Assembly (NCBI RefSeq): GCF_900115615.1 | Contig: NZ_FOXB01000001.1 | Span: forward strand, 1 to 64,000 | Direction of reading: 5' to 3' | Length of the DNA stretch: 64,000 nucleotides | Source: Hydrogenimonas thermophila | GTDB taxonomy: Bacteria; Campylobacterota; Campylobacteria; Campylobacterales; Hydrogenimonadaceae | Shown here: one piece after another, positions 21,510 to 64,000 of the stretch | Layout of the letters: each line of letters begins with the position of its first letter | How positions within the stretch are numbered: position 1 is the stretch's first letter | Position numbers and translations under genes: made by a program | The notes under the pieces: model-generated | Database searches by the model: none | Told to the model about the DNA's origin: nothing | Seen by the model: the letters and a program-made list of their open reading frames with translations, nothing else

Positions 21510-22649
21510 ATGAAAATAACATACATAGCAAACTCATCAGTTCCATCAACAAGTGCAAATAGTGTTCATGTAATGAAAATGTGTGAAGCATTTAAAAAGA
21601 ATGGAATCAATATAAAACTGGTTACTCCAGATAAAGGAGAAAAAGAGTTATTAAAAAATTTAAATGAATATGAGTTCTATGGTATCACATATAAATTTCC
21701 TATTAAATTTTATAAAATGTTTTTTAACTCAATGAGAGGTATAAAAGTTTATTTATATTATTTATATGTGGTTTGGAAAGAGTACAAAGATGCAGATATT
21801 ATTTTTACAAGAGAACCAATAGCTTCATTTTTTTGTATACTTTTTAGAAAAAAACATATTTTAGAATTACATGGTCAATTAAAGTTTGTTTCATATAAAT
21901 TATTTAAATTATTTAAATTATTTAAATTATTTAAATCAAGATATATGTTAAATATAATTGTAATATCTACACCACTGAAAGATATATATTTAAAAGATTT
22001 TGATATAGATGAAAATAAAATAAATGTTTTACCTGATGGTGTAACAGTTGAAAATTTTACAAATATAAGTAAAAAGCAATTGCTTAAAAGTGATATTAAC
22101 ATAGGGTACACAGGAAGTTTATATAAAGGTAGAGGTATAGATATCATTTTACATATTGCAAGCAATCTAACTGAAATTAATTTTAATATATACGGGGGCG
22201 AAAAAGAGCAGATAAATTATTGGAGAGATTATTGCAAAAAAAATTGCCTGAAAAATGTAGTATTTTTCGGTCATATACCAAATAAAGATATTCCCAAAGT
22301 ACTGTGTAATCAAGATATTTTATTAATGCCATATCAAAAAAAAGTTCAAACAAGAGGAATTCAAAACACATCATCTTGGATGTCTCCTATGAAAATGTTT
22401 GAATATATGGCAAGTGGAAGAATTGTTGTTTCTTCAGATTTACCAGTATTACGAGAAGTTTTAAATGAAAAAAATGCATATTTAGTTGCTCCAGACGATA
22501 AAGACGAGTGGGTAAATATGATTAAATATATTCTTGAGAATAGAGAAGAAGGCATAAAAAAAGCAGAACAAGCTAAAATTGATGTTTTAAAATATACTTG
22601 GCAAAATAGAGCTAAAACCATAGTAGATTCTATAAAAGGGAAATTATGA
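21510..22649 (+). CDS. Glycosyltransferase family 4
   Basis: This 379-residue GT-B transferase begins MKITYIANSSVPSTSANSVH, the donor-acceptor loop of many GT4 enzymes. The C-terminal half has NIGYTGSLYKGRGIDI and the nucleotide-sugar binding SPMKMFEYMASGRIVVSSD. A run of four LFK-type units (LFKLFKLFKLFK) near residues 130-143 comes from a 9-bp repeat. It overlaps the next gene by four bases. Confidence 0.85.
   Translation: MKITYIANSSVPSTSANSVHVMKMCEAFKKNGINIKLVTPDKGEKELLKNLNEYEFYGITYKFPIKFYKMFFNSMRGIKVYLYYLYVVWKEYKDADIIFTREPIASFFCILFRKKHILELHGQLKFVSYKLFKLFKLFKLFKSRYMLNIIVISTPLKDIYLKDFDIDENKINVLPDGVTVENFTNISKKQLLKSDINIGYTGSLYKGRGIDIILHIASNLTEINFNIYGGEKEQINYWRDYCKKNCLKNVVFFGHIPNKDIPKVLCNQDILLMPYQKKVQTRGIQNTSSWMSPMKMFEYMASGRIVVSSDLPVLREVLNEKNAYLVAPDDKDEWVNMIKYILENREEGIKKAEQAKIDVLKYTWQNRAKTIVDSIKGKL
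21901..21936 (+). repeat. 9-bp tandem repeat in a glycosyltransferase gene
   Basis: Four exact copies of TATTTAAAT encode a Leu-Phe-Lys run. Unit length is a multiple of three, so copy-number changes would lengthen or shorten the protein without a frameshift. Confidence 0.9.
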
Positions 22650-23491
22650 AAACTATTGTATCAATTACATCACTTGAAAGAAGTGGCTCTACAATACTTG
22701 ATCTAAGCCTATCTAAACATCCTAAAATGATTAGTTTTGGAGAAGTTTGGAGAACCTTGTCTCCTGGTAGAAGTATAGACAGGGTTAAAAATATGGATTG
22801 TAATTGTGGTCATAAAGTAAAAGATTGTGAGTTTTGGAGTAAAGTTTTTGAACAAATAGAAAGAGAAAAGTCAATAAAATGGATTGAGAGATATTACATT
22901 TTTTTAGAAATATTTTATAGTTTTTATGGAGATGATTTTATTCCTATAGACTCATCAAAATTCTTAAGGGCTATTGAAAAGTTTAAGTTGTTAGATGATT
23001 ACCAAGTAAAAACAATTTTTACAATTAGAGATGTTAGAGGTTGGACATATTCCATTAAGCTATCTGAAAAAAGAAAGAAAGAGATGCCTTTAAAGCTTAT
23101 TTTTGATTTTAATGAATTTAAATGGCAATGGAAAGCATACATAAGATATAATTTTCTTAGAAAAGTACCTGGATGGCTCTCTTATGAGTGGATGTATAGA
23201 AATAGAAAGATATTAAAATTTTTAGAAAAAAATAACTATAATTATCTAAAAATAAGTTACGAAGAATTAAACTTTAATGATAAAGTTTTTGATAAAATAT
23301 TTAATTTTATTGGTTTAAATAATACTGTTTTGCAGAACTCAAAAGCTCATATTGTTGATGGAAATAGAACAGCATTTTCTAAAGATTTATCTCTAAGATA
23401 TGATTTAAAGTGGTTAAGAGATAAGCCTATTAATATAATGTTACCTCAAGTAGGATATTTTAATAAAAAATATGTCTGGGAATGGGACTGA
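22646..23491 (+). CDS. Second sulfotransferase-family protein
   Basis: This 281-residue protein has the PAPS-loop motif SLERSGSTILDLSLSKHP at the N-terminus and a 3'-phosphate motif FTIRDVRGWTYS at about residues 127-138. Between them, CNCGHKVKDCEFW is a cysteine-rich motif common in this bacterial sulfotransferase subgroup. It differs clearly from the sulfotransferase at 19.7 kb, so it probably sulfates a different position. It overlaps both neighbours. Confidence 0.8.
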   Translation: MKTIVSITSLERSGSTILDLSLSKHPKMISFGEVWRTLSPGRSIDRVKNMDCNCGHKVKDCEFWSKVFEQIEREKSIKWIERYYIFLEIFYSFYGDDFIPIDSSKFLRAIEKFKLLDDYQVKTIFTIRDVRGWTYSIKLSEKRKKEMPLKLIFDFNEFKWQWKAYIRYNFLRKVPGWLSYEWMYRNRKILKFLEKNNYNYLKISYEELNFNDKVFDKIFNFIGLNNTVLQNSKAHIVDGNRTAFSKDLSLRYDLKWLRDKPINIMLPQVGYFNKKYVWEWD

Positions 23492-24015
23492 TGATATATA
23501 AATTAATTAATAATTTAAGGTTTTTTAAGAAAAATAATATCTATATTTCAAAATCAGCTAATATAAGCTTATTGACAAAAGTTAGAGTTTTAAAAGAAGG
23601 CAAAATTAAAATAGGTAGTAATAGTAAAATTTATGAAAACTGTTTAATAGATGCAGGAAAATCGAAATTAATTATAGGAAATAATGTAAAAATTCATAGA
23701 TTGTGTACATTGAGTGCAGGTAAATATTCAAGATTAATAATAGGAGATAATGTATTAATTGCAGAAAAGACTTCAATTTTTGCTTCTAATCATCAGTTTA
23801 AAGAAAAAAATATTTTAATAAATCAAAGAGGAGTAATTTCAAAGGGCATAGTAATTGAAGATGATGTATGGATAGGAGTAAACTGTATAATTTTAGATGG
23901 AGTAAAAATTGCTAAGGGATGTGTTATAGGGGGGGGAAGTGTGGTAACTAAGAATACTGAGCCATATGGTATATATGTAGGCAATCCTGCAAGAAAAATA
24001 GGAGAAAGGGTTTGA
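23491..24015 (+). CDS. Hexapeptide acyltransferase with a G8 tract
   Basis: This is a left-handed beta-helix acyltransferase: repeats include IKIGSNSKIYENCLI and LIIGDNVLIAEKTSI, then the acetyl-CoA site HQFKEK, DDVWIGVNCIILDGV, IGGGSVVTKN and YVGNPARKIGE. ATG 23491 overlaps the previous stop (TGATG); an in-frame ATG at 23482 is an alternative. Codons for IGGG contain eight consecutive G residues (23929-23936). The gene is ON as sequenced, but one G more or less would stop translation within a few codons, before the end of the fold. The TTG start of the next glycosyltransferase overlaps its stop. Confidence 0.85.
   Translation: MIYKLINNLRFFKKNNIYISKSANISLLTKVRVLKEGKIKIGSNSKIYENCLIDAGKSKLIIGNNVKIHRLCTLSAGKYSRLIIGDNVLIAEKTSIFASNHQFKEKNILINQRGVISKGIVIEDDVWIGVNCIILDGVKIAKGCVIGGGSVVTKNTEPYGIYVGNPARKIGERV
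23929..23936 (+). repeat. Poly-G (G8) tract, candidate phase-variable switch
   Basis: Eight G residues in a coding sequence in otherwise very AT-rich DNA. Seven G would give a TAA stop six codons later and nine G a TAA after eight codons. Such tracts are the standard phase-variation switches of Campylobacter surface-glycan genes. Confidence 0.8.
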
Positions 24016-25127
24016 AAATTTCTATATTTATTCCTTCTTTTGAAACAGGAGGTGTAGAAAATAATGTTATATTATATTCAAAAATTTTTGTAGAAAATTC
24101 TATTGAAACTGAACTAGTATATGTAAGAGCAGTTGAAAAGAAATTAAGTAAAGTAGATGAAAAAGTAAAAAAAATTAAAATTGGTAAAAAGATAAATATA
24201 CCGTTTATTCATCCAAGAGTTTTAGACTCTTTAAGTTTAATTTGGGACTATTATAGATATTTAAAAAATAATGAGGTATTAATTTTTTCATTTCAAAATA
24301 GTGTTGTAGCTATTATTCTGGCAAAATTAACAAGGAGAAAAATAATTATAAGAGTTGCTAATCATCCAAATAGTGCAAAAATTGAAAAATCTTTTACTGT
24401 AAAACTATCTAATTTTTTAAAAAAGGTAATTTATAAATATGCAAATTTGATCATTACAAATTCTGAAGTTACAGCACAAGCCTTAAAACAAATTACAAAA
24501 AATAATAATGTAAAAACAATATATAATCCATCTTATTCTCTAGATCTTATAAGTAAAAGTAAAGAGGATATAGTGGATGAAAAATTTAATAATATAATCG
24601 GATCAAAAATTATAGCAGTTGGAAGATTAGTAATTCAAAAAGATTTCATAACTTTACTAAAAGCATTCAAAATCGTAAAAGAAAAAATCAATGATGCAAA
24701 CTTAATAATAATCGGTGAAGGAAGCGAAAGATTAAAAATAGAAAAGTTAATAAAAGAACTAAATTTATATGATGTATATTTACTTGGATTTCAAGACAAT
24801 CCACATAAATATGTTTCAAAAAGTGATTTATTTGTGTTAAGTTCATTATATGAAGGCTTGCCAAATGCATTAATTGAAGCTATTGGAGTTGGAACACCTG
24901 CAGTTTCAACAAATTGTTTAAGTGGACCTAGTGAAATATTACTTGATGGAAGAGGTGGAGATTTGGTAGAAGTAGGAAATTATAAAGCTTTAGCAAAATG
25001 TATAATTAAAAATTTAGAGGATAGAGATTATGCTATATCAAAATGGAAAATTGCATATGACAATTTAGATAGATTTTCTTATGATAATATAAAAAATAAA
25101 TTACTTGAAATTATAAAAAATGTATAA
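24012..25127 (+). CDS. Glycosyltransferase family 4 (first of three tandem)
   Basis: This 371-residue GT-B protein starts SIFIPSFETGGVENN, the G-G-V-E loop typical of GT4. It has IIAVGRLVIQKDFITLLKAF and the E-x7-E nucleotide-sugar motif SSLYEGLPNALIEAIGVGTP. Start is TTG 24012, overlapping the upstream stop, with AAAGG just before it. Its C-terminal half is closely similar to the next two genes, suggesting tandem duplication. Translational coupling places it under the influence of the G8 tract 76 bases upstream. Confidence 0.87.
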   Translation: MKISIFIPSFETGGVENNVILYSKIFVENSIETELVYVRAVEKKLSKVDEKVKKIKIGKKINIPFIHPRVLDSLSLIWDYYRYLKNNEVLIFSFQNSVVAIILAKLTRRKIIIRVANHPNSAKIEKSFTVKLSNFLKKVIYKYANLIITNSEVTAQALKQITKNNNVKTIYNPSYSLDLISKSKEDIVDEKFNNIIGSKIIAVGRLVIQKDFITLLKAFKIVKEKINDANLIIIGEGSERLKIEKLIKELNLYDVYLLGFQDNPHKYVSKSDLFVLSSLYEGLPNALIEAIGVGTPAVSTNCLSGPSEILLDGRGGDLVEVGNYKALAKCIIKNLEDRDYAISKWKIAYDNLDRFSYDNIKNKLLEIIKNV

Positions 25128-29403: not shown

Positions 29404-30146
29404 TGAATTTAGTTTCCGTAATTACACCATCTTACAACTCATCAAAATTTATTGCTAAAACAATTGAATCTGTTTTAAACCAAACCTATCAAAATTGGGA
29501 AATGATTATAGTTGATGATGTTTCATCTGATAATTCAAATGAAATTATTGAAGGATATAGAAAAAAAGATAACCGTATTAAATTAATTAAATTAGAAAAA
29601 AATAGTGGTCCAGCAATAGCAAGAAATATAGGGATAAAAAAAGCAAAAGGAAGATTTATTGCATTTTTAGATAGTGATGATATTTGGTTACCACAAAAAT
29701 TACAAAAACAAATTGATTTTATGATAACTAATGATTTAAGCCTAACTTATAGTGCTTATGATACTATAGATGAAATAGGAAATAAAATTAACACTAGATA
29801 TATTAAAGAGTATATTACATATACTGATATGTTAAAAACAAATCATATAGGTAATCTTACAGGAATATATGATAGTAAAAAAATAGGTAAGTTTTATATG
29901 GATAATGTTGGACATGAAGATTATACTTTATGGTTGAAAATAATGAATAATATAAAAGAGACTAAAGGTTTAAATGAGCCTTTGGCTCAATATAGAATAA
30001 TATCTAATTCAATATCTGCAAATAAACTTAAAGTAATAAAATGGCAGTGGAATATATATAGAAATATTTTGAATTTAAGTTTATTAAAAAGTAGTTATTA
30101 TTTTGTATATTATATTTTTAATGCTATTAAAAAAAGAAAAGCTTAA
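29403..30146 (+). CDS. Glycosyltransferase family 2
   Basis: This 247-residue GT-A transferase begins VSVITPSYNSSKFIAKTIES, with SVLNQTYQNWEMIIVDDVSSD, the metal-binding FLDSDDIWLP, and GHEDYTLWLKI as the catalytic-base region. It is the compact WaaB/EpsE-like type. It is the last gene of the + strand operon; its stop overlaps the stop of the convergent sugar-transferase gene by four bases (shared CTTAAA region), leaving no room for a terminator. Confidence 0.87.
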   Translation: MNLVSVITPSYNSSKFIAKTIESVLNQTYQNWEMIIVDDVSSDNSNEIIEGYRKKDNRIKLIKLEKNSGPAIARNIGIKKAKGRFIAFLDSDDIWLPQKLQKQIDFMITNDLSLTYSAYDTIDEIGNKINTRYIKEYITYTDMLKTNHIGNLTGIYDSKKIGKFYMDNVGHEDYTLWLKIMNNIKETKGLNEPLAQYRIISNSISANKLKVIKWQWNIYRNILNLSLLKSSYYFVYYIFNAIKKRKA

Positions 30147-31069
30147 ACCCCCTTTTTCCCAATAACCGTCATAGCTGTCATCCAAACTATTTTAAGTTCA
30201 AGCAAAATGTTCCAGTATTTGATGTAGTAAAGATCATACATTAACTTTTGCTTAGCATCTTCACCATTTTCTCCATAGGGGTACATTACCTGTGCCCACC
30301 CTGTAACTCCTGGTCTTACCAAGTGTCTTTCATTGTAGTAAGGTATGATCTTTTCAAATTGATCTGTCCAGTACTTTCTTTCTGGTCTTGGACCTATGAG
30401 ATGTATTTCACCTTTTAAGATGTTCCACATTTGAGGCAGTTCATCTAGTCTGGTTTTTCGCATAACTGCTCCCCACTTAAATACTCTAGGATCATCCTTG
30501 CTTGCAAATTTTGGTATGCCTTTTTCTGCATCTGGAACCATACTGCGAAACTTAATGCAAACAAACTCTTTGCCATTTAGCCCAACTCTTTTTTGTTTAA
30601 AGAGAATTGGACCATCTGGAGACTCTTTTTTTATGCGGTAGGCACAGTAGATCATAACAGGCCAAGAGAAGAAAAAGAGCCAAAAGATCCCAAAAAAGTC
30701 TATTGCTCTTTTTTGAATGTATTGCCATTTGGTGTATGGTTTTATGTTTTCTAAAAAGCTTATATCTGTATGATCTTCTGGAATGTAGCATTTTTGCATA
30801 TGTTTTTCTAAAAAGTGTTCTATGGAGATGAAAGATACACCTTTTAACTCTAAGTTTGTTAGGTAAGTTATGAGTTTGTCTGGAATAGATTCAGAGGTGT
30901 TTAGAATGATGAGTTTTCTGTTTTTGTTTTCCAGAGCTTTTTCAATGGCTTCTATGACATCTTCGCTATTTTTCTCTTTATATGGAATATTTGTAATATC
31001 TTGAAATTTTTTTTTAAGATTCTCTAGCTCATACTCTGTAAATTTATACTTATTACCTAGAACTATCAT
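30143..31069 (-). CDS. Initiating polyprenyl-phosphate sugar-phosphate transferase
   Basis: This 308-residue protein of the bacterial sugar transferase family (PF02397) transfers a hexose-1-phosphate to undecaprenyl phosphate, the first step of repeat-unit assembly. The catalytic domain is clear: one membrane-inserted helix (IDFFGIFWLFFFSWPVMIY), LFKQKRVGLNGKEF, KFRSM, RKTRLDELPQMWNIL, LIGPRPER and RPGVTGWAQV. The ~110-residue N-terminus is a small Rossmann-like domain, not the four-helix CoA-binding-like domain of WbaP. It is the only minus-strand gene of the glycan region and has its own promoter. Confidence 0.9.
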   Translation of the reverse strand: MIVLGNKYKFTEYELENLKKKFQDITNIPYKEKNSEDVIEAIEKALENKNRKLIILNTSESIPDKLITYLTNLELKGVSFISIEHFLEKHMQKCYIPEDHTDISFLENIKPYTKWQYIQKRAIDFFGIFWLFFFSWPVMIYCAYRIKKESPDGPILFKQKRVGLNGKEFVCIKFRSMVPDAEKGIPKFASKDDPRVFKWGAVMRKTRLDELPQMWNILKGEIHLIGPRPERKYWTDQFEKIIPYYNERHLVRPGVTGWAQVMYPYGENGEDAKQKLMYDLYYIKYWNILLELKIVWMTAMTVIGKKGV

Positions 31070-31099
31070 ACAGAATTACCTTTTGTTTAGAGTAGTGTA

Positions 31100-31105
31100 A
31101 TTATA
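31100..31105 (-). promoter_or_regulatory. Candidate -10 box for the sugar transferase gene
   Basis: Read on the minus strand, this is TATAAT, 31 bases before the ATG of the sugar-phosphate transferase, with AAAGGT as a ribosome binding site in between. Confidence 0.4.
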
Positions 31106-31163
31106 ATGATCTTATTTGAATGTTTAGTTAATTTAACTCTTCAAGCTATTTCAAGTCAAACTT

Positions 31164-32069
31164 AATGAGATCTATAACCTAGCAGCTATGAGCCACGTTG
31201 CTGTAAGCTTTGAAACACCAGAGTATGTGGCAAATGCTGACGGTACAGGAACTTTGCGAATTCTTGAAGCTGTACGTCTGCTGGGTTTGACTGACAAGAC
31301 ACGTGTTTACCAAGCCTCAACTTCAGAACTCTACGGAAAAGTACAAGAGATTCCTCAAACTGAAAAGACACCATTTTACCCACGCTCTCCATATGCTGTA
31401 GCTAAAATGTATGCTTACTGGATCACAGTTAACTATCGTGAAGCTTACAATATGTTTGCTTGTAACGGGATTTTGTTTAACCACGAATCACCAGTGCGAG
31501 GTGAAACATTTGTTACCCGTAAGATCACCCGTGCGGCGGCTAAAATAGCACTTGGATTGCAAGATAAACTCTACCTTGGAAACTTAGATGCAAAACGTGA
31601 TTGGGGTCATGCAAAAGATTATGTAAGAATGATGTGGATGATTTTGCAAGCTGATGAGCCAGAAGATTGGGTAATTGCAACAGGCAAGACAACATCTGTT
31701 AGAGACTTTGTAAAGATGGCATTTGGGTATTTGGGTGTAGAATTGAGGTTTGAGGGTGAAGGGATTGATGAAGTTGGGATTATAGATAGTGTAGATACGA
31801 AAAGATTAAATGAATTAAACCTAAATCCTAAATCCTCAAACCTAAATCCTGGCAATATTGTAGTAGCTGTAGATCCTCGTTACTTCCGTCCGACTGAAGT
31901 AGATCTACTCATAGGTGATCCTACTAAAGCAAAAGAGAAACTTGGCTGGGAGCCACAATATACTCTAAATGAGCTTGTAGATGAGATGATGGCAAGTGAT
32001 TTGAAGCTTATGAAGAAGGATGAGTACTTAAAAGATGGTGGTTATACCATTATGAACTACTTTGAGTAG
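31164..32069 (+). pseudogene. gmd: 5'-truncated GDP-mannose 4,6-dehydratase
   Basis: The frame from 31164 encodes [20 protein letters not shown], the middle of Gmd, then [28 protein letters not shown] with the catalytic Tyr-x3-Lys, [17 protein letters not shown] and a normal C-terminus ([14 protein letters not shown]). The N-terminal ~75 residues, with the GxxGxxG NADP-binding site, are missing; an in-frame TAA at 31134 lies upstream. An ATG at 31188 could start a 293-residue protein that could not bind cofactor normally. The break lies just beyond the divergent sugar-transferase promoter. A heptanucleotide tract lies at 31818. Confidence 0.85.
31818..31852 (+). repeat. In-frame heptanucleotide repeat tract H3 (in gmd)
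   Basis: Five units of seven bases: AACCTAA, ATCCTAA, ATCCTCA, AACCTAA, ATCCTGG. It encodes [12 protein letters not shown]. The only G residues are the last two bases. It sits between the conserved SVDTKRLNE and [15 protein letters not shown] blocks. Confidence 0.85.
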
Positions 32070-33825: not shown

Positions 33826-34860
33826 ATGCTAAAAAAACTTCCAATAGGCATACAGACATTCAGTCATATAAGAGAAGAGAACTATATTTATGTAGATAAA
33901 ACAGAAGATGCTTTGGAAGTAATAGAGAATTATAAATATGCTTTTTTGTCTCGACCAAGAAGATTTGGTAAGAGCCTTTTTTTAGATACTCTAAGAAATA
34001 TTTTTGAAGGAAAAAGAGAGCTTTTTGAAGGGCTCTATATTTACGATAAATGGGATTGGAGCATAAAGTATCCTGTTATTAAGATCAGTTGGGATGGTAG
34101 AAATAGAAGTATAGAAGATTTAAAACTAAATACAGAAAAATTTATTAGAGATAATCAAGAAAAATTAGGCATTAAATGTGAAGCTCCATTGAGTCATCCT
34201 ACTTGCTTTGCAGAATTAATAGAAAAAGCTTGTAAAAAATATAACCAAAAAGTGGTAGTACTTATAGATGAGTACGATAAGCCAATCTTAGATGTCATAG
34301 AAGATAAAGAGCAAGCAAAAGAGCATAGAGAGTATATAAAAGGTCTATACTCAACATTAAAAGGGGTAGATGAGTACATACGCTTTGCATTCCTAACCGG
34401 TGTAAGTAAATTCTCTAAAGCAAGTATCTTTAGTGGTTTAAATAATTTAGAGGATATTTCACTAACTCCAAAGTTTGGCAATATCTGTGGTTATACTCAA
34501 AACGATCTTGAAACAACTTTTAAAGAGTATCTGCAAGATGCAAATATGCAAAAGATAAAAGAGTGGTACAATGGCTACAACTTTTTAAAAGATAATCTCT
34601 ATAATCCATTTGATATTTTACAGTTTATTAGAAATGATAAAGTATTTAAAAACTATTGGTTTAAAAGTGCAACTCCAACATTTCTAATCAAATTAATTGA
34701 GAAAAACAACTACTTTTTACCAAAACTTTCAAACTTGGTAGTTGGTGAAGAGTTGGTTGATAGTTTTGATATTGAAAATATAAGTTTAGAAACGTTGAGC
34801 GGGTCAGAGGTTTACTTTTTACTAAAAAGTATCAATTTAAATCGTACTTTACGATTATAA
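33826..34860 (+). pseudogene. Truncated AAA-ATPase-like / PD-(D/E)XK nuclease gene
   Basis: The first ~325 codons closely match the full-length gene at 39325: MLKKLPIGIQTFS, YIYVDKTEDALEVI, SRPRRFGKSLFLDTL (Walker A-like), VVVLIDEYDKPILDV (Walker B) and FLTGVSKFSKASIFSGLNNL. After SFDIENISLE the frame enters the array repeat at 34801 and ends with about 20 unrelated codons at 34860. The C-terminal nuclease domain (about 200 residues in the intact copy) is lost. The junction suggests a deletion that fused the interior of the gene to the repeat after its former stop. Confidence 0.85.
34801..34820 (+). repeat. Array repeat R2
   Basis: GGGTCAGAGGTTTACTTTTT, preceded by TTGAGC as in R7. Here it lies inside the truncated nuclease frame and marks the deletion junction. 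Confidence 0.85.
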
Positions 34861-39324: not shown

Positions 39325-40911
39325 ATGCTAAAAAAACTTCCAATAGGCATACAGACATTTAGTAAAATAAGAGAAGAAAACTATATTTATGTAGATAAAA
39401 CAAAAGAGGCTTTGGAAGTAATAGAAAATTATACCTATGCTTTTTTGTCTCGTCCCAGAAGATTTGGTAAAAGCCTTTTTTTAGATACTTTAAGAAATAT
39501 TTTTGAAGGAAAAAGAGAGCTTTTTGAAGGGCTTTATATTTACGATAAATGGGATTGGAGCATAAAGTACCCTGTCATTAAAATTGATTGGAGAGGTGAC
39601 TTTCAAACATTAGATAGCTTAAAAAGCGTAGCAACAAGAATATTTAACCAGAATAAAGAGAGATTGAAAGTTAACTGCAAAGATATAGACAATTCAGTAA
39701 TGTGTTTTGATGAGTTAATCCAACAAACCTATGAAAAATATAATCAAAAAGTAGTTATCTTAATAGATGAGTACGATAAACCGATTCTTGATGTCATTGA
39801 AAATAGAGAGCAAGCAAAGATAAATAGAGAGTTTATAAAAGCCCTTTACACTATTATAAAATCAAATGATGAATACATTCGCTTTGCATTCTTAACAGGT
39901 GTAAGTAAATTTTCTAAAGCAAGCATATTTAGCGGTTTAAACAATTTAGAAGATATTTCACTAACTCCAAAATTTGGAAATATCTGTGGCTACACTCAAA
40001 AAGACCTTGAAACAACCTTTAAAGAGTATCTGCTTGGTACTAACCTTCAAAAAGTTAAAGAGTGGTACAATGGTTATAACTTTTTAAAAGATGATGTATA
40101 TAATCCTTTTGATATATTGAAGTTTATAAAGAATGATTTAGTATTTGATAACTACTGGTTTAGTAGTGGAACTCCAACATTTCTAATTAAACTCATAGAA
40201 AAGAATAACTACTTTTTACCAAAACTTTCAAACTTGGTAGTTGGCAAAGAGCTAGTTGACAGCTTCGACATTGAAAATATAAGTTTAGAAGTCATCCTTT
40301 ATCAGTCTGGGTATTTAACAATTGATGAGAAGATAGTAGAAGAGTTTGGCTTTAATACAATCATAAAATATAAGTTAAAACTGCCAAACCTTGAAGTAAA
40401 AGCTTCACTAAATAACTATATATTAGAACATCTTTTAAACCAAACAAATGGAGAAAAACTACAAAACCAGACAAATCTATATAAGGCATTGGCAAATGCA
40501 AAACTAGATGACTTTAAAAATACTCTAATCTCCATCTTTGCATCAATCCCATACAACAACTACTCAAACAACTACATTCAAAACTATGAAGGCTTTTATG
40601 CTAGCTTAGTATATGTTTACCTTCAATCTCTAGGAATAAAAATAATAGGAGAAGATGTAACAAACCAAGGAAGAATAGACTTAACTCTTTTCATAGAAGA
40701 TAAGATTTATATTATAGAGTTTAAAGTAGTTGATAGTGATGGTAAAGAAAAAAACAGTGCATTAGCACAAATTAAAGAGAAAAACTACCACCGAAAATAC
40801 CTTAACTCTAAACTTCTAACTTCGAACTCAAAACTCTACCTTTTAGGCATAGAATTTAGCAAAGAGGAAAAAAATATTGTTGGTTTTGAGTGGGAGAGCA
40901 TCAATAATTGA
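39325..40911 (+). CDS. AAA-ATPase-like protein with PD-(D/E)XK nuclease domain
   Basis: This intact 528-residue protein has an N-terminal AAA-ATPase-like domain (YIYVDKTKEALEVI, SRPRRFGKSLFLDTL, VVILIDEYDKPILDV, FLTGVSKFSKASIF) and a C-terminal PD-(D/E)XK nuclease-like domain (GRIDLTLFIEDKIYIIEFKV with Asp about 452, Glu about 465, Lys about 467). This family is widespread, often multicopy, and of unknown function. Two decayed relatives lie at 33.8 and 38.3 kb. Residues of about 494-505 (NSKLLTSNSKLY) come from a heptanucleotide tract. R6 and R7 flank the gene. Confidence 0.88.
   Translation: MLKKLPIGIQTFSKIREENYIYVDKTKEALEVIENYTYAFLSRPRRFGKSLFLDTLRNIFEGKRELFEGLYIYDKWDWSIKYPVIKIDWRGDFQTLDSLKSVATRIFNQNKERLKVNCKDIDNSVMCFDELIQQTYEKYNQKVVILIDEYDKPILDVIENREQAKINREFIKALYTIIKSNDEYIRFAFLTGVSKFSKASIFSGLNNLEDISLTPKFGNICGYTQKDLETTFKEYLLGTNLQKVKEWYNGYNFLKDDVYNPFDILKFIKNDLVFDNYWFSSGTPTFLIKLIEKNNYFLPKLSNLVVGKELVDSFDIENISLEVILYQSGYLTIDEKIVEEFGFNTIIKYKLKLPNLEVKASLNNYILEHLLNQTNGEKLQNQTNLYKALANAKLDDFKNTLISIFASIPYNNYSNNYIQNYEGFYASLVYVYLQSLGIKIIGEDVTNQGRIDLTLFIEDKIYIIEFKVVDSDGKEKNSALAQIKEKNYHRKYLNSKLLTSNSKLYLLGIEFSKEEKNIVGFEWESINN
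40804..40838 (+). repeat. In-frame heptanucleotide repeat tract H6 (in the nuclease gene)
   Basis: Five units: AACTCTA, AACTTCT, AACTTCG, AACTCAA, AACTCTA. One G only. It lies just before the last conserved strand (LLGIEFSKEEKNI). Confidence 0.82.
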
Positions 40912-46197: not shown

Positions 46198-48585
46198 ATG
46201 TATAAAGGTAGAAAAGTAAGCTTGGCTGCAAGCTTAGCTGTTGCAGGAGTAATTGTTCTTTCAGGATGTGGCGGTGGAGATTCCACACCAACTACAGAGA
46301 CAACAACAATTAGTGGTACAGCATACGATGGACCAGTAATTGATGCAGACGTTTGTGCATATGATGTAAATGGTAATAAGTTGGGGTGTACAACAACTAA
46401 TAATGATGGTACATACTCGCTTACAGTTTCAGGTACTCCTTACTATTTGGAAGTTAAAGGAAATGATACTGCAAAAGATATAGGTGCAGATGAAAAAGTT
46501 GGTACTGCTGATGATATAAACTTTACATCAAACGACTATATGAAAGCACTTTATAGCGATGGTGGAAATATTACACCGTTAACATATCTTCAGTATCTTA
46601 CAACTACAGATATGACTTCAGATGGAATTAGTTCAGAAATTAATGATTCTACTAAGTTTGATATAGCTAAAGTAGTGGTATCAGTTAAAATTATACAAGG
46701 TTTGGGGTTAACTACAGAAGAAGCATACAAAGCATTAGCTTATATTATAAATAATAATGTTGAGTATAGGGCTTTGAGTTTTACTATTACAAGTGATGCT
46801 CTTAAAAATGCTATTAGTAAAGTTAATTCAACTATCACAGTAGATGATACAATATTAAGTAAAGTAGCAGAAAGTATAACAAATATTATTAGTACAATTG
46901 AGGCTTTGGAAGGTATACCTTTTAAAGATGTAAGTACTGATATTTCTGCTACCATTAAAGTAGTAATATACACTATAAAAGTAGAAGTAGAAGAAGCGGT
47001 CAAAACAGGTTCTGCTGAAGGTATTGCAACTACCTTAGATGAAATAAAAACTTTGATTGATAAAGAAAAAAGTAAGTTGGAATCTACAGACACAGGAACA
47101 GACACAGGAACAGACACAGGAACAGACACAGGAACAGACACAGGAACAGACACAGGAACAGACACAGGAACAGACACAGAAACTGTAGTAACAGAAGATG
47201 GAACAGAAATTAATGTAACTATTCTTAGTGGCTATGACATTTTAACTGCAACAGCAGATATGAGTGATACATCTTTAAATGTTAAATCTATAGAAGATGT
47301 AACAGCTGATGCTAGTGGTATTTTTAATTTGAAAAAATATTATATAAAAGTTGATCCTACTCCAGATCTTGACAATGTTACAGATGTAAATAACACATTT
47401 ACTGCAATAAAAGATAAACTAGGTGAGTATTTAGATCTAAACTTAAGCTTAGTTAATGATACTACATCTGATACTTTCTCAAAAGATGTAAATGTAACTG
47501 TTTATATAAAAGGTGATGATGGTGGCTGGTTAACTGGTACTGCAGAAGCAAAATTTGAAAAAATTGATGGAAACTTTAAAGTAACTGTTGCAGAGGGTAC
47601 TACTTTACAACTATGTGGAGCATTTGGTGATTTAGATATGACTTGTGCTACTAAAACCAATTATGGTGTAAATGCAATTACAAGTGATGGAAAGAATTTA
47701 ATTTTCAATGCGTCAAGCATTATAAACGAATTTGCAAACAATGAACAGGTAGGAGATACTATTAAGAAAAACTTGGTTAAATATGTTACAAGAGCAAATA
47801 CATATGACGCATATTTGGTAATAGTAGATAAAGACGGATATGACTTCATAGGAAATACAACAGAGGTAACTCTACCTATACCTGATGATAAATGGCCATA
47901 TACTACTGGGAAAATAAGAAAAGCTACTCAAGTACATTTAGATGTTTTAGATAACTTCCCTCCTGAATTAACATTAACTACAAGTTCTATTAGTGCAAAT
48001 ATTGATGCATCATTCAGTGAGATAATAGGAACAGCAAAAGATCCTGAAAGTGATGCATTGACTTGTACTGCTACAAGTTCTTCATTAACAACGTTAACTT
48101 GTAATATTGCCAGTGATGGAAATGTAACTTTAAACGGTACTGCTCCAAGCACAGATGGCACATATAGTGCAAATGTAAAAGTATGCGATGCTAAAGCTTG
48201 TGTATCTAAAGATATAAGTGTAGAAGTAAGTGATCCACTTGCTGGATTTAAAGATGCAGCTGATAGAATAAAAAGCTACTATACTGTTAATCCTGTTCTT
48301 TTTACACTTTTGAATAATGGAGATGTTAACTCAACTAGTGTTACAGGTGTAACAGTAAAAAGTTATTCTGATTTACCTATAGCCGTTGCATTAGATCAAT
48401 TAGACGAAGATACATCTGCTGGTGGAATAATGTATGTATATGATGATAATGTTGATAGCAGTAAAGCTTTTTTGAAAATTACTTATCAAGGTACATATGA
48501 AGGTAAAAATGTAACTATTTATTATAGTGGAGATGAATTTAATACTACAATTCAAAGTGGAGATATACATTTACCATTACCATAA
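46198..48585 (+). CDS. Large surface lipoprotein with TDTG repeats
   Basis: This 795-residue protein has a lipoprotein signal (LAVAGVIVLSGC, lipobox LSGC at about residues 21-24). After a Thr-rich linker comes an SGTAYDGPVIDADVCAYDVN carboxypeptidase-regulatory-like domain, a helical middle, a TDTG tetrapeptide repeat coded by a 12-bp minisatellite, and beta-rich domains including a cadherin/Ig-like stretch (ISANIDASFSEIIGTAKDPE). It heads a run of secreted-protein genes and probably sits on the cell surface. Confidence 0.75.
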   Translation: MYKGRKVSLAASLAVAGVIVLSGCGGGDSTPTTETTTISGTAYDGPVIDADVCAYDVNGNKLGCTTTNNDGTYSLTVSGTPYYLEVKGNDTAKDIGADEKVGTADDINFTSNDYMKALYSDGGNITPLTYLQYLTTTDMTSDGISSEINDSTKFDIAKVVVSVKIIQGLGLTTEEAYKALAYIINNNVEYRALSFTITSDALKNAISKVNSTITVDDTILSKVAESITNIISTIEALEGIPFKDVSTDISATIKVVIYTIKVEVEEAVKTGSAEGIATTLDEIKTLIDKEKSKLESTDTGTDTGTDTGTDTGTDTGTDTGTDTGTDTETVVTEDGTEINVTILSGYDILTATADMSDTSLNVKSIEDVTADASGIFNLKKYYIKVDPTPDLDNVTDVNNTFTAIKDKLGEYLDLNLSLVNDTTSDTFSKDVNVTVYIKGDDGGWLTGTAEAKFEKIDGNFKVTVAEGTTLQLCGAFGDLDMTCATKTNYGVNAITSDGKNLIFNASSIINEFANNEQVGDTIKKNLVKYVTRANTYDAYLVIVDKDGYDFIGNTTEVTLPIPDDKWPYTTGKIRKATQVHLDVLDNFPPELTLTTSSISANIDASFSEIIGTAKDPESDALTCTATSSSLTTLTCNIASDGNVTLNGTAPSTDGTYSANVKVCDAKACVSKDISVEVSDPLAGFKDAADRIKSYYTVNPVLFTLLNNGDVNSTSVTGVTVKSYSDLPIAVALDQLDEDTSAGGIMYVYDDNVDSSKAFLKITYQGTYEGKNVTIYYSGDEFNTTIQSGDIHLPLP
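47089..47172 (+). repeat. 12-bp minisatellite coding Asp-Thr-Gly-Thr
   Basis: Seven exact copies of GACACAGGAACA, followed by one degenerate copy. Unit length is a multiple of three, so copy number can change without frameshift. The perfect identity suggests recent expansion. Confidence 0.92.
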
Positions 48586-63264: not shown

Positions 63265-64000
63265 AATGAAAATTGATAACTCTATTGAAAGTTTAATGAA
63301 TAAAATTAAACATGATGTAGAAAAAAGAAAAAATATTATTAATACTTATAAAAATAAGAGAAATACAAATTTAGTGTTTACTCCCCAAAAAAATATTATC
63401 AATAAAAGAGATATACCTTTTGTATATAAAGATATTTATGAATATTCAGATTTTACAAAATTTCAGGATATTGAGTTTATTAAAAATTTATATAAAGGTA
63501 TATTAAGAAGAGAAGTAGATTCAAATGGCCTAGAATATTATTTAAAATTATTAAGAAGTGGAGATAAAAGTAAAAGTGAAATAGTTTCTTTAATAAGATA
63601 TTCAAAGGAGGGGAGAAGAAAAAATATAAAAATACTTGGTTCTAAAAAAAGATTCTTTCAAGCAGTTTTATATAAAGTTCCATTAATAGGCTATATGTCT
63701 AAAATTTTTATTACTATATGTACTTTGCCTAGATTATTAAAAAGATTAAATAGTTATGAAAGTTATATCGCACAAGAATCAATAATAAACTATAAAAATG
63801 ATTTATTGCTTGAAACAGCATTACATCAGAAAACTGAAGAGTTAGAAGAAAAATTAGATGAAAAGGTTAAAGAGTTAGAAGAAAAATTAGATGAAAAGGT
63901 TAAAGAGTTAGAAGAAAAATTAGATGAAAAGGTTAAAGAGTTAGAAGAAAAATTAGATAAAAAAGTTGAAGAAAAAGATTTTGAATTATACTTAGAAACT
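63257..64000 (+). CDS. DUF4214 protein with long coiled coil (3' end outside window)
   Basis: The frame is open to the end of the window. ATG 63257 overlaps the wzt stop; ATG 63266 is an alternative. After a basic N-terminus comes a DUF4214-like domain (FIKNLYKGILRREVDSNGLE, SEIVSLIRYSKEGRRKN), then a hydrophobic or amphipathic stretch and a coiled coil built from 11-residue repeats (LEEKLDEKVKE). Proteins with this layout next to Wzm/Wzt often continue into methyltransferase or glycosyltransferase domains that terminate O-antigen chains; that part is not visible here. Confidence 0.72.
   Translation, partial: MNKMKIDNSIESLMNKIKHDVEKRKNIINTYKNKRNTNLVFTPQKNIINKRDIPFVYKDIYEYSDFTKFQDIEFIKNLYKGILRREVDSNGLEYYLKLLRSGDKSKSEIVSLIRYSKEGRRKNIKILGSKKRFFQAVLYKVPLIGYMSKIFITICTLPRLLKRLNSYESYIAQESIINYKNDLLLETALHQKTEELEEKLDEKVKELEEKLDEKVKELEEKLDEKVKELEEKLDKKVEEKDFELYLET
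63842..63940 (+). repeat. 33-bp tandem repeat coding coiled coil
   Basis: Three copies of a 33-bp unit beginning TTAGAAGAAAAATTAGATGA, with a fourth degenerate copy from 63941. Each unit codes an 11-residue coil segment (LEEKLDEKVKE). The length is a multiple of three, so a change in copy number alters only the molecular-ruler length. Confidence 0.9.

Follow-up and report, generated by a model that had tools for sequence, protein, structure and literature searches.

The locus examined here raises the question of whether a run of eight G residues, lying in frame in an acyltransferase gene of Hydrogenimonas thermophila, is a phase-variation switch or a homopolymer of the kind that codon usage produces by chance. 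The window, that is the whole stretch of 64,000 nucleotides that was analysed, holds a surface-glycan locus made up of glycosyltransferases, acyltransferases, sulfotransferase-like genes and a flippase-like gene, and the gene with the tract sits in an AT-rich run with a GC content of 23-25%. The features that matter for the argument are the following.

22646..23491, forward strand: sulfotransferase-like gene, the 5' neighbour, whose stop overlaps the acyltransferase ATG; its Pfam match is weak and below cut-off.
23491..24015, forward strand: hexapeptide (LbH) acyltransferase coding sequence (Pfam Hexapep PF00132, E=5e-16; PDB sequence matches to O-/N-acyltransferases of the same fold).
23929..23936, forward strand: G8 homopolymer, codons GGG GGG GG(A), residues 150-152 (G-G-G, where homologs mostly have G-A-G).
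23945..23947, forward strand: stop TAA in the G7 (or G10) frame, by frame arithmetic.
23949..23951, forward strand: stop TAA in the G9 (or G6) frame, by frame arithmetic.
23980..23991, forward strand: codons for G167-N-P-A170, missing in both off frames; of these residues, G167 and P169 do not vary across 106 homologs.
24000..24004, forward strand: AGGAG, a ribosome-binding-like site of the 3' glycosyltransferase, seven bases before its TTG.
24012..25127, forward strand: glycosyltransferase (GT group 1 / GT4-like), the 3' neighbour, whose TTG start overlaps the acyltransferase stop TGA 24013-24015.

The product is a predicted hexapeptide (LbH) acyltransferase: the repeats, the His and the C-terminal G-x-P of the family are all present, and His104 is found in 97% of the homologs (n=106). 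It shares hexapeptide repeats, His104 and G-x-P with the LacA/Maa/SACOL2570/PglD-fold sugar O-/N-acyltransferases, and it differs from them in carrying Gly151 instead of a near-invariant Ala. Residues are numbered on the 177-aa ORF 23482-24015, counted from ATG 23482; the more likely start is ATG 23491, which overlaps the upstream stop as TGATG and would give a 174-aa protein.

The eight G fall in the codons ATA GGG GGG GGA AGT, which encode I-G-G-G-S (residues 149-153). In silico, the G8 frame gives the 177-aa product, G7 gives 154 aa ending in ...IGGEVW* and G9 gives 156 aa ending in ...IGGGKCGN*; both off products are shorter by 21-23 residues and have lost the invariant C-terminal G-x-P, so that loss of function can fairly be inferred. 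By this arithmetic a change in tract length would turn the gene on or off, and eight residues also reach the tract length regarded as prone to slippage (7-8 or more). The first-pass annotation, which had placed the G8 in the IGGG codons of a hexapeptide acyltransferase that is on at this length and had both G7 and G9 ending at an early TAA with loss of the C-terminal part, was right on these points.

The same annotation noted, correctly, that the next glycosyltransferase starts at a TTG inside the acyltransferase stop. From this overlap one may suppose an effect of the tract on its 3' neighbour, in which a change of frame alters translation of the glycosyltransferase by coupling; however, the glycosyltransferase has its own AGGAG, which makes dependence on coupling unnecessary, and this is the most improbable of the explanations considered here. 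Slightly easier to entertain, and still very improbable, is a consensus or assembly error, in which the tract is in truth of another length than eight, leaving the gene off or without a clean G8. Homopolymers are error-prone under some sequencing methods and the assembly is a 92-contig draft, but the G8 frame yields a full-length, family-conserved C-terminus that G7 or G9 would break, and common short-read methods read a run of eight reliably.

The G8 is the sole G or C run of more than 5 in the window and the sole G/C run of at least 8 in the 2.44-Mb genome, so that the search for further G8 or longer tracts that the first-pass annotation had proposed as a check returned none besides the one at 23929-23936. 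Genome-wide, G runs of at least 6 comprise seventeen G6, one G7 and one G8, with no G9, and the single G7 falls in tRNA-like, non-coding sequence. A synonymous-codon null conditioned on the first base of the codon that follows predicts 0.133 runs of at least 8 in 372 kb of predicted CDS, or about 0.74 genome-wide, a figure biased slightly upwards because this CDS was drawn in part from the window and from several stretches picked for their G6 runs; against it, one G8 is no excess. A plain synonymous shuffle gives about 0.55 such runs per 332 kb of CDS, roughly 3 genome-wide. No excess of tracts over chance was therefore found in the whole genome, with 1 observed against about 0.7 to 3 expected. 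GGG makes up 4% of the Gly codons that precede a G.

The tract is also private to this gene. A search for orthologs in the genus and the order came up empty, the best match having 46% identity. G-G-G occurs in none of 108 homologs, whose G-runs at the site reach 5 at most; runs of more than 5 are likewise absent there from 26 additional homologs of the order. One of the 26 (G368, L199) has VVGGGSVV, encoded GGG GGA GGA. The middle residue, Gly151 here, is Ala in 96% of 106 homologs. A degenerate DNA pattern for VIGGGSVV has a single hit in 399 genomes of the order, that in the source genome, and so none in the other 398; the pattern misses L199, since Ile is obligatory at its second position. 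In the same locus, two other transferases of the hexapeptide family have GGA GCA GGT and GGT GCT GGT. The comparison with relatives, also proposed in the first-pass annotation, thus went against it: other codons, and indeed another residue, occupy the site, and neither recurrence of the tract nor length variation appears there in any homolog examined, the comparison being one between species. One possible origin of the tract would be mutation of the C to G in the codons for the usual Gly-Ala-Gly, from GGG GCG GGA to GGG GGG GGA, in a gene that would already have used rare GGG codons before that step.

Other members of the genus have 0-6 G8 windows per genome, which, read singly, lie in assorted genes, most of them unrelated to glycans, or in an intergenic repeat, at 38-59% local GC; only about two are in glycosyltransferase-like genes. 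Five loci of genus members (L142, L151, L015, L147 and L017) have in common an element TTCG(A/T)AGC(T/G)TC(A/G) followed by a G8-G12 run, apparently intergenic.

Could the gene nevertheless be a true simple-sequence contingency locus, in which slipped-strand mispairing at the G8 flips the acyltransferase on (G8) or off (G7/G9) and so varies glycan acylation? The tract is in frame with stops in both other frames, truncation removes invariant residues, and the setting is a surface-glycan locus. Like cj1139 among the poly-G contingency genes of C. jejuni, it is an intragenic G8 in a surface-glycan gene with an early stop out of frame and no MutL in the genome; the tract of cj1139, also G8, has a switching frequency of 0.004, the tract threshold being 7 or more (PMC4965091). 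A homologous hexapeptide transferase is moreover frameshifted near a G11 in a poly-G-rich genome of the same order (L198 of G358, family f13). This gene belongs to the same enzyme family, with 36% identity and a coding G tract; it differs in that the G11 lies early in the repeat domain, where the frame is broken in the assembly, and its genome differs from the source genome in having 176 G9 windows and no MutS7. In L198 the homolog spans 1501-1887 with in-frame stops near the G11 at 1557, and a second tract, G12, lies at 2425.

Against a contingency locus stand the single tract in the genome, not above chance and with no G9 or longer, and the finding that neither the homologs examined nor the genus has a tract at this position. 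The position near the 3' end also argues against it, as clear sets in G284, a genome of the order that bears MutS7, are multiple, G9-G10 in length and N-terminal. C. jejuni NCTC 11168 carries 29 G/C tracts of 7 or more (PMC4965091), whereas the source genome has one coding tract, whose lengths other than G8 are in silico only. On balance we consider a contingency locus unlikely, though with a chance well above that of an assembly error. Of the first-pass claim, the frame arithmetic, the loss of function and the glycan locus stand, and the wording "likely phase-variable" does not, given a lone tract at chance number and relatives that differ. Its analogy with Campylobacter holds for length, since the G8 of cj1139 switches, and not for context: it is weakened because the genome lies in a MutS7-bearing, poly-G-poor part of the order, in a poly-G-poor genus, and the tract is lone and private.

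The best reading is that the G8 is a private homopolymer at close to chance frequency, in a context prone to slippage, and that it ranks no higher than an unproven candidate for phase variation. On this view, which we hold to be probable, the tract is real and solitary and is present at the number that codon usage yields by chance; nothing observed points to a maintained switch, and a MutS7-type protein may hold slippage down. Gain or loss of one G would leave the acyltransferase inactive, as the loss of the invariant G-x-P suggests, and slips may run somewhat above the background rate because MutL is missing. Four observations sit less easily with this reading. One G8 with zero coding G7 is slightly off a falling run-length series; the G8 required both a rare Gly at a position that is 96% Ala and two tandem GGG codons; the lone tract hits a surface-glycan gene, the typical setting of phase variation; and G284, despite its MutS7, still has a G9-G10 set in paralogous receptor-like genes. 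A single in-frame G8 in a glycan gene is in any case insufficient to call phase variation, and a genome-wide tract count, a codon null and the set of repair genes should come before any such call.

As for that set, MutL has no match in the source genome and none in 299 genomes of the order, and classical mismatch repair is ruled out as a cause of tract stability by its absence. A MutS2-like frame is found on contig C39 of the source genome. On contig C4 (C4:47112-50066; L181/L210) lies a 985-aa MutS with MutS domains I, II (sub-threshold), III and V and a C-terminal HNH; its domain make-up (MutS I, III, V + HNH) matches that of MutS7, as defined in PMC3166940, so that we class the predicted product as MutS7-type. 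The MutS7 lineage comprises epsilonproteobacteria, giant viruses and octocoral mitochondria, and self-contained mismatch repair has been proposed for it (PMC3166940). The HNH-fused protein may limit slippage in the source genome, as a correlation across the order suggests.

We scored MutS7 in 399 genomes of the order as a match to the 985-aa MutS+HNH protein at E<=1e-60, and tallied G9 windows in the same genomes, a way of counting that overcounts long tracts. A MutS7-type protein is present in 228 of the 399 genomes of this MutL-less order. In the 347 genomes at least 90% complete, the median number of G9 windows is 1 with MutS7 and 23.5 without; at least 20 windows are found in 1 of 195 genomes with MutS7 and in 82 of 152 without, so that 82 of the 83 such genomes lack it. 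These statistics ignore kinship, GC content and lifestyle, and since the genomes are related the overall p-value is no proper test. Within families, the difference holds in f8 (p=0.003), is weak in f20 (p=0.003, with small counts) and was not found in f5 (p=0.21); members of f14 with MutS7 have 0-1 G9 windows, but their genomes are incomplete.

Two strict versions of the relation fail. Loss of MutS7 alone is ruled out as the source of tracts, as f9 (0-5 G9 windows) and parts of f5 and f20 are without MutS7 yet tract-poor. MutS7 as an absolute bar to poly-G switching is ruled out by G284, an AT-rich genome with MutS7 and 34 G9 windows, where the sampled tracts (L213-L219, L221) are G9-G10 runs near the N-termini of receptor-like paralogs (VSGGGTVLSNLNSVLEE.. 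/ YGGGYNLLSANETT..), likely a phase-variable family. This set resembles our locus in being coding poly-G in a MutS7-bearing genome, and differs in its many paralogs, longer tracts and N-terminal position. Absence of MutS7 therefore looks permissive for poly-G, neither sufficient nor strictly required, and the source genome, with its MutS7-type MutS+HNH, is unlike the families with large poly-G repertoires, which are without MutS7.

A further step, which we put forward tentatively and hold to be possible rather than probable, is that MutS7 acts as a self-contained mismatch repair in the MutL-less order and keeps G tracts short, that lineages losing it have been freed to build poly-G contingency repertoires, and that the lone G8 is a stable tract. 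If MutS7 does control slippage, this would help to explain why some Campylobacterales-like lineages have dozens to hundreds of poly-G tracts and close kin almost none; it would give a testable function to a protein whose self-contained action has so far only been proposed, and the lone G8 in a MutS7-bearing genome would be a natural test object. A single library search joining "MutS7" and "phase variation" returned one paper, on antibiotic-resistance mutators, with each term once. This by-product, poly-G repertoires that track the absence of MutS7, is of more interest than the G8 itself.

Several other elements of the window deserve mention. The glycosyltransferase at 21510-22649 contains a perfect 9-bp tandem repeat at 21896-21936 (4.6 copies, KLF repeats), where a change in copy number would alter length and keep the frame. 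The GDP-mannose dehydratase-like ORF 31188-32069 apparently lacks its N-terminal part and adjoins a minus-strand sugar transferase (30143-31069); in this stretch (30143-32069) the GC content rises from about 0.23 to 0.30, which may mark a recombination boundary of the glycan locus. An AAA/nuclease-like gene occurs in two copies, 33826-34860 and 39325-40911, the former of which looks decayed, as its similarity stops after ISLE(T/V) and its reading frame ends early (344 vs 528 aa). Tandem repeats of in-frame size are also found at 47086-47183 (12 bp x 8.2, the TGTD repeats of a lipoprotein-like gene) and at 63837-63972 (33 bp x 4.1).
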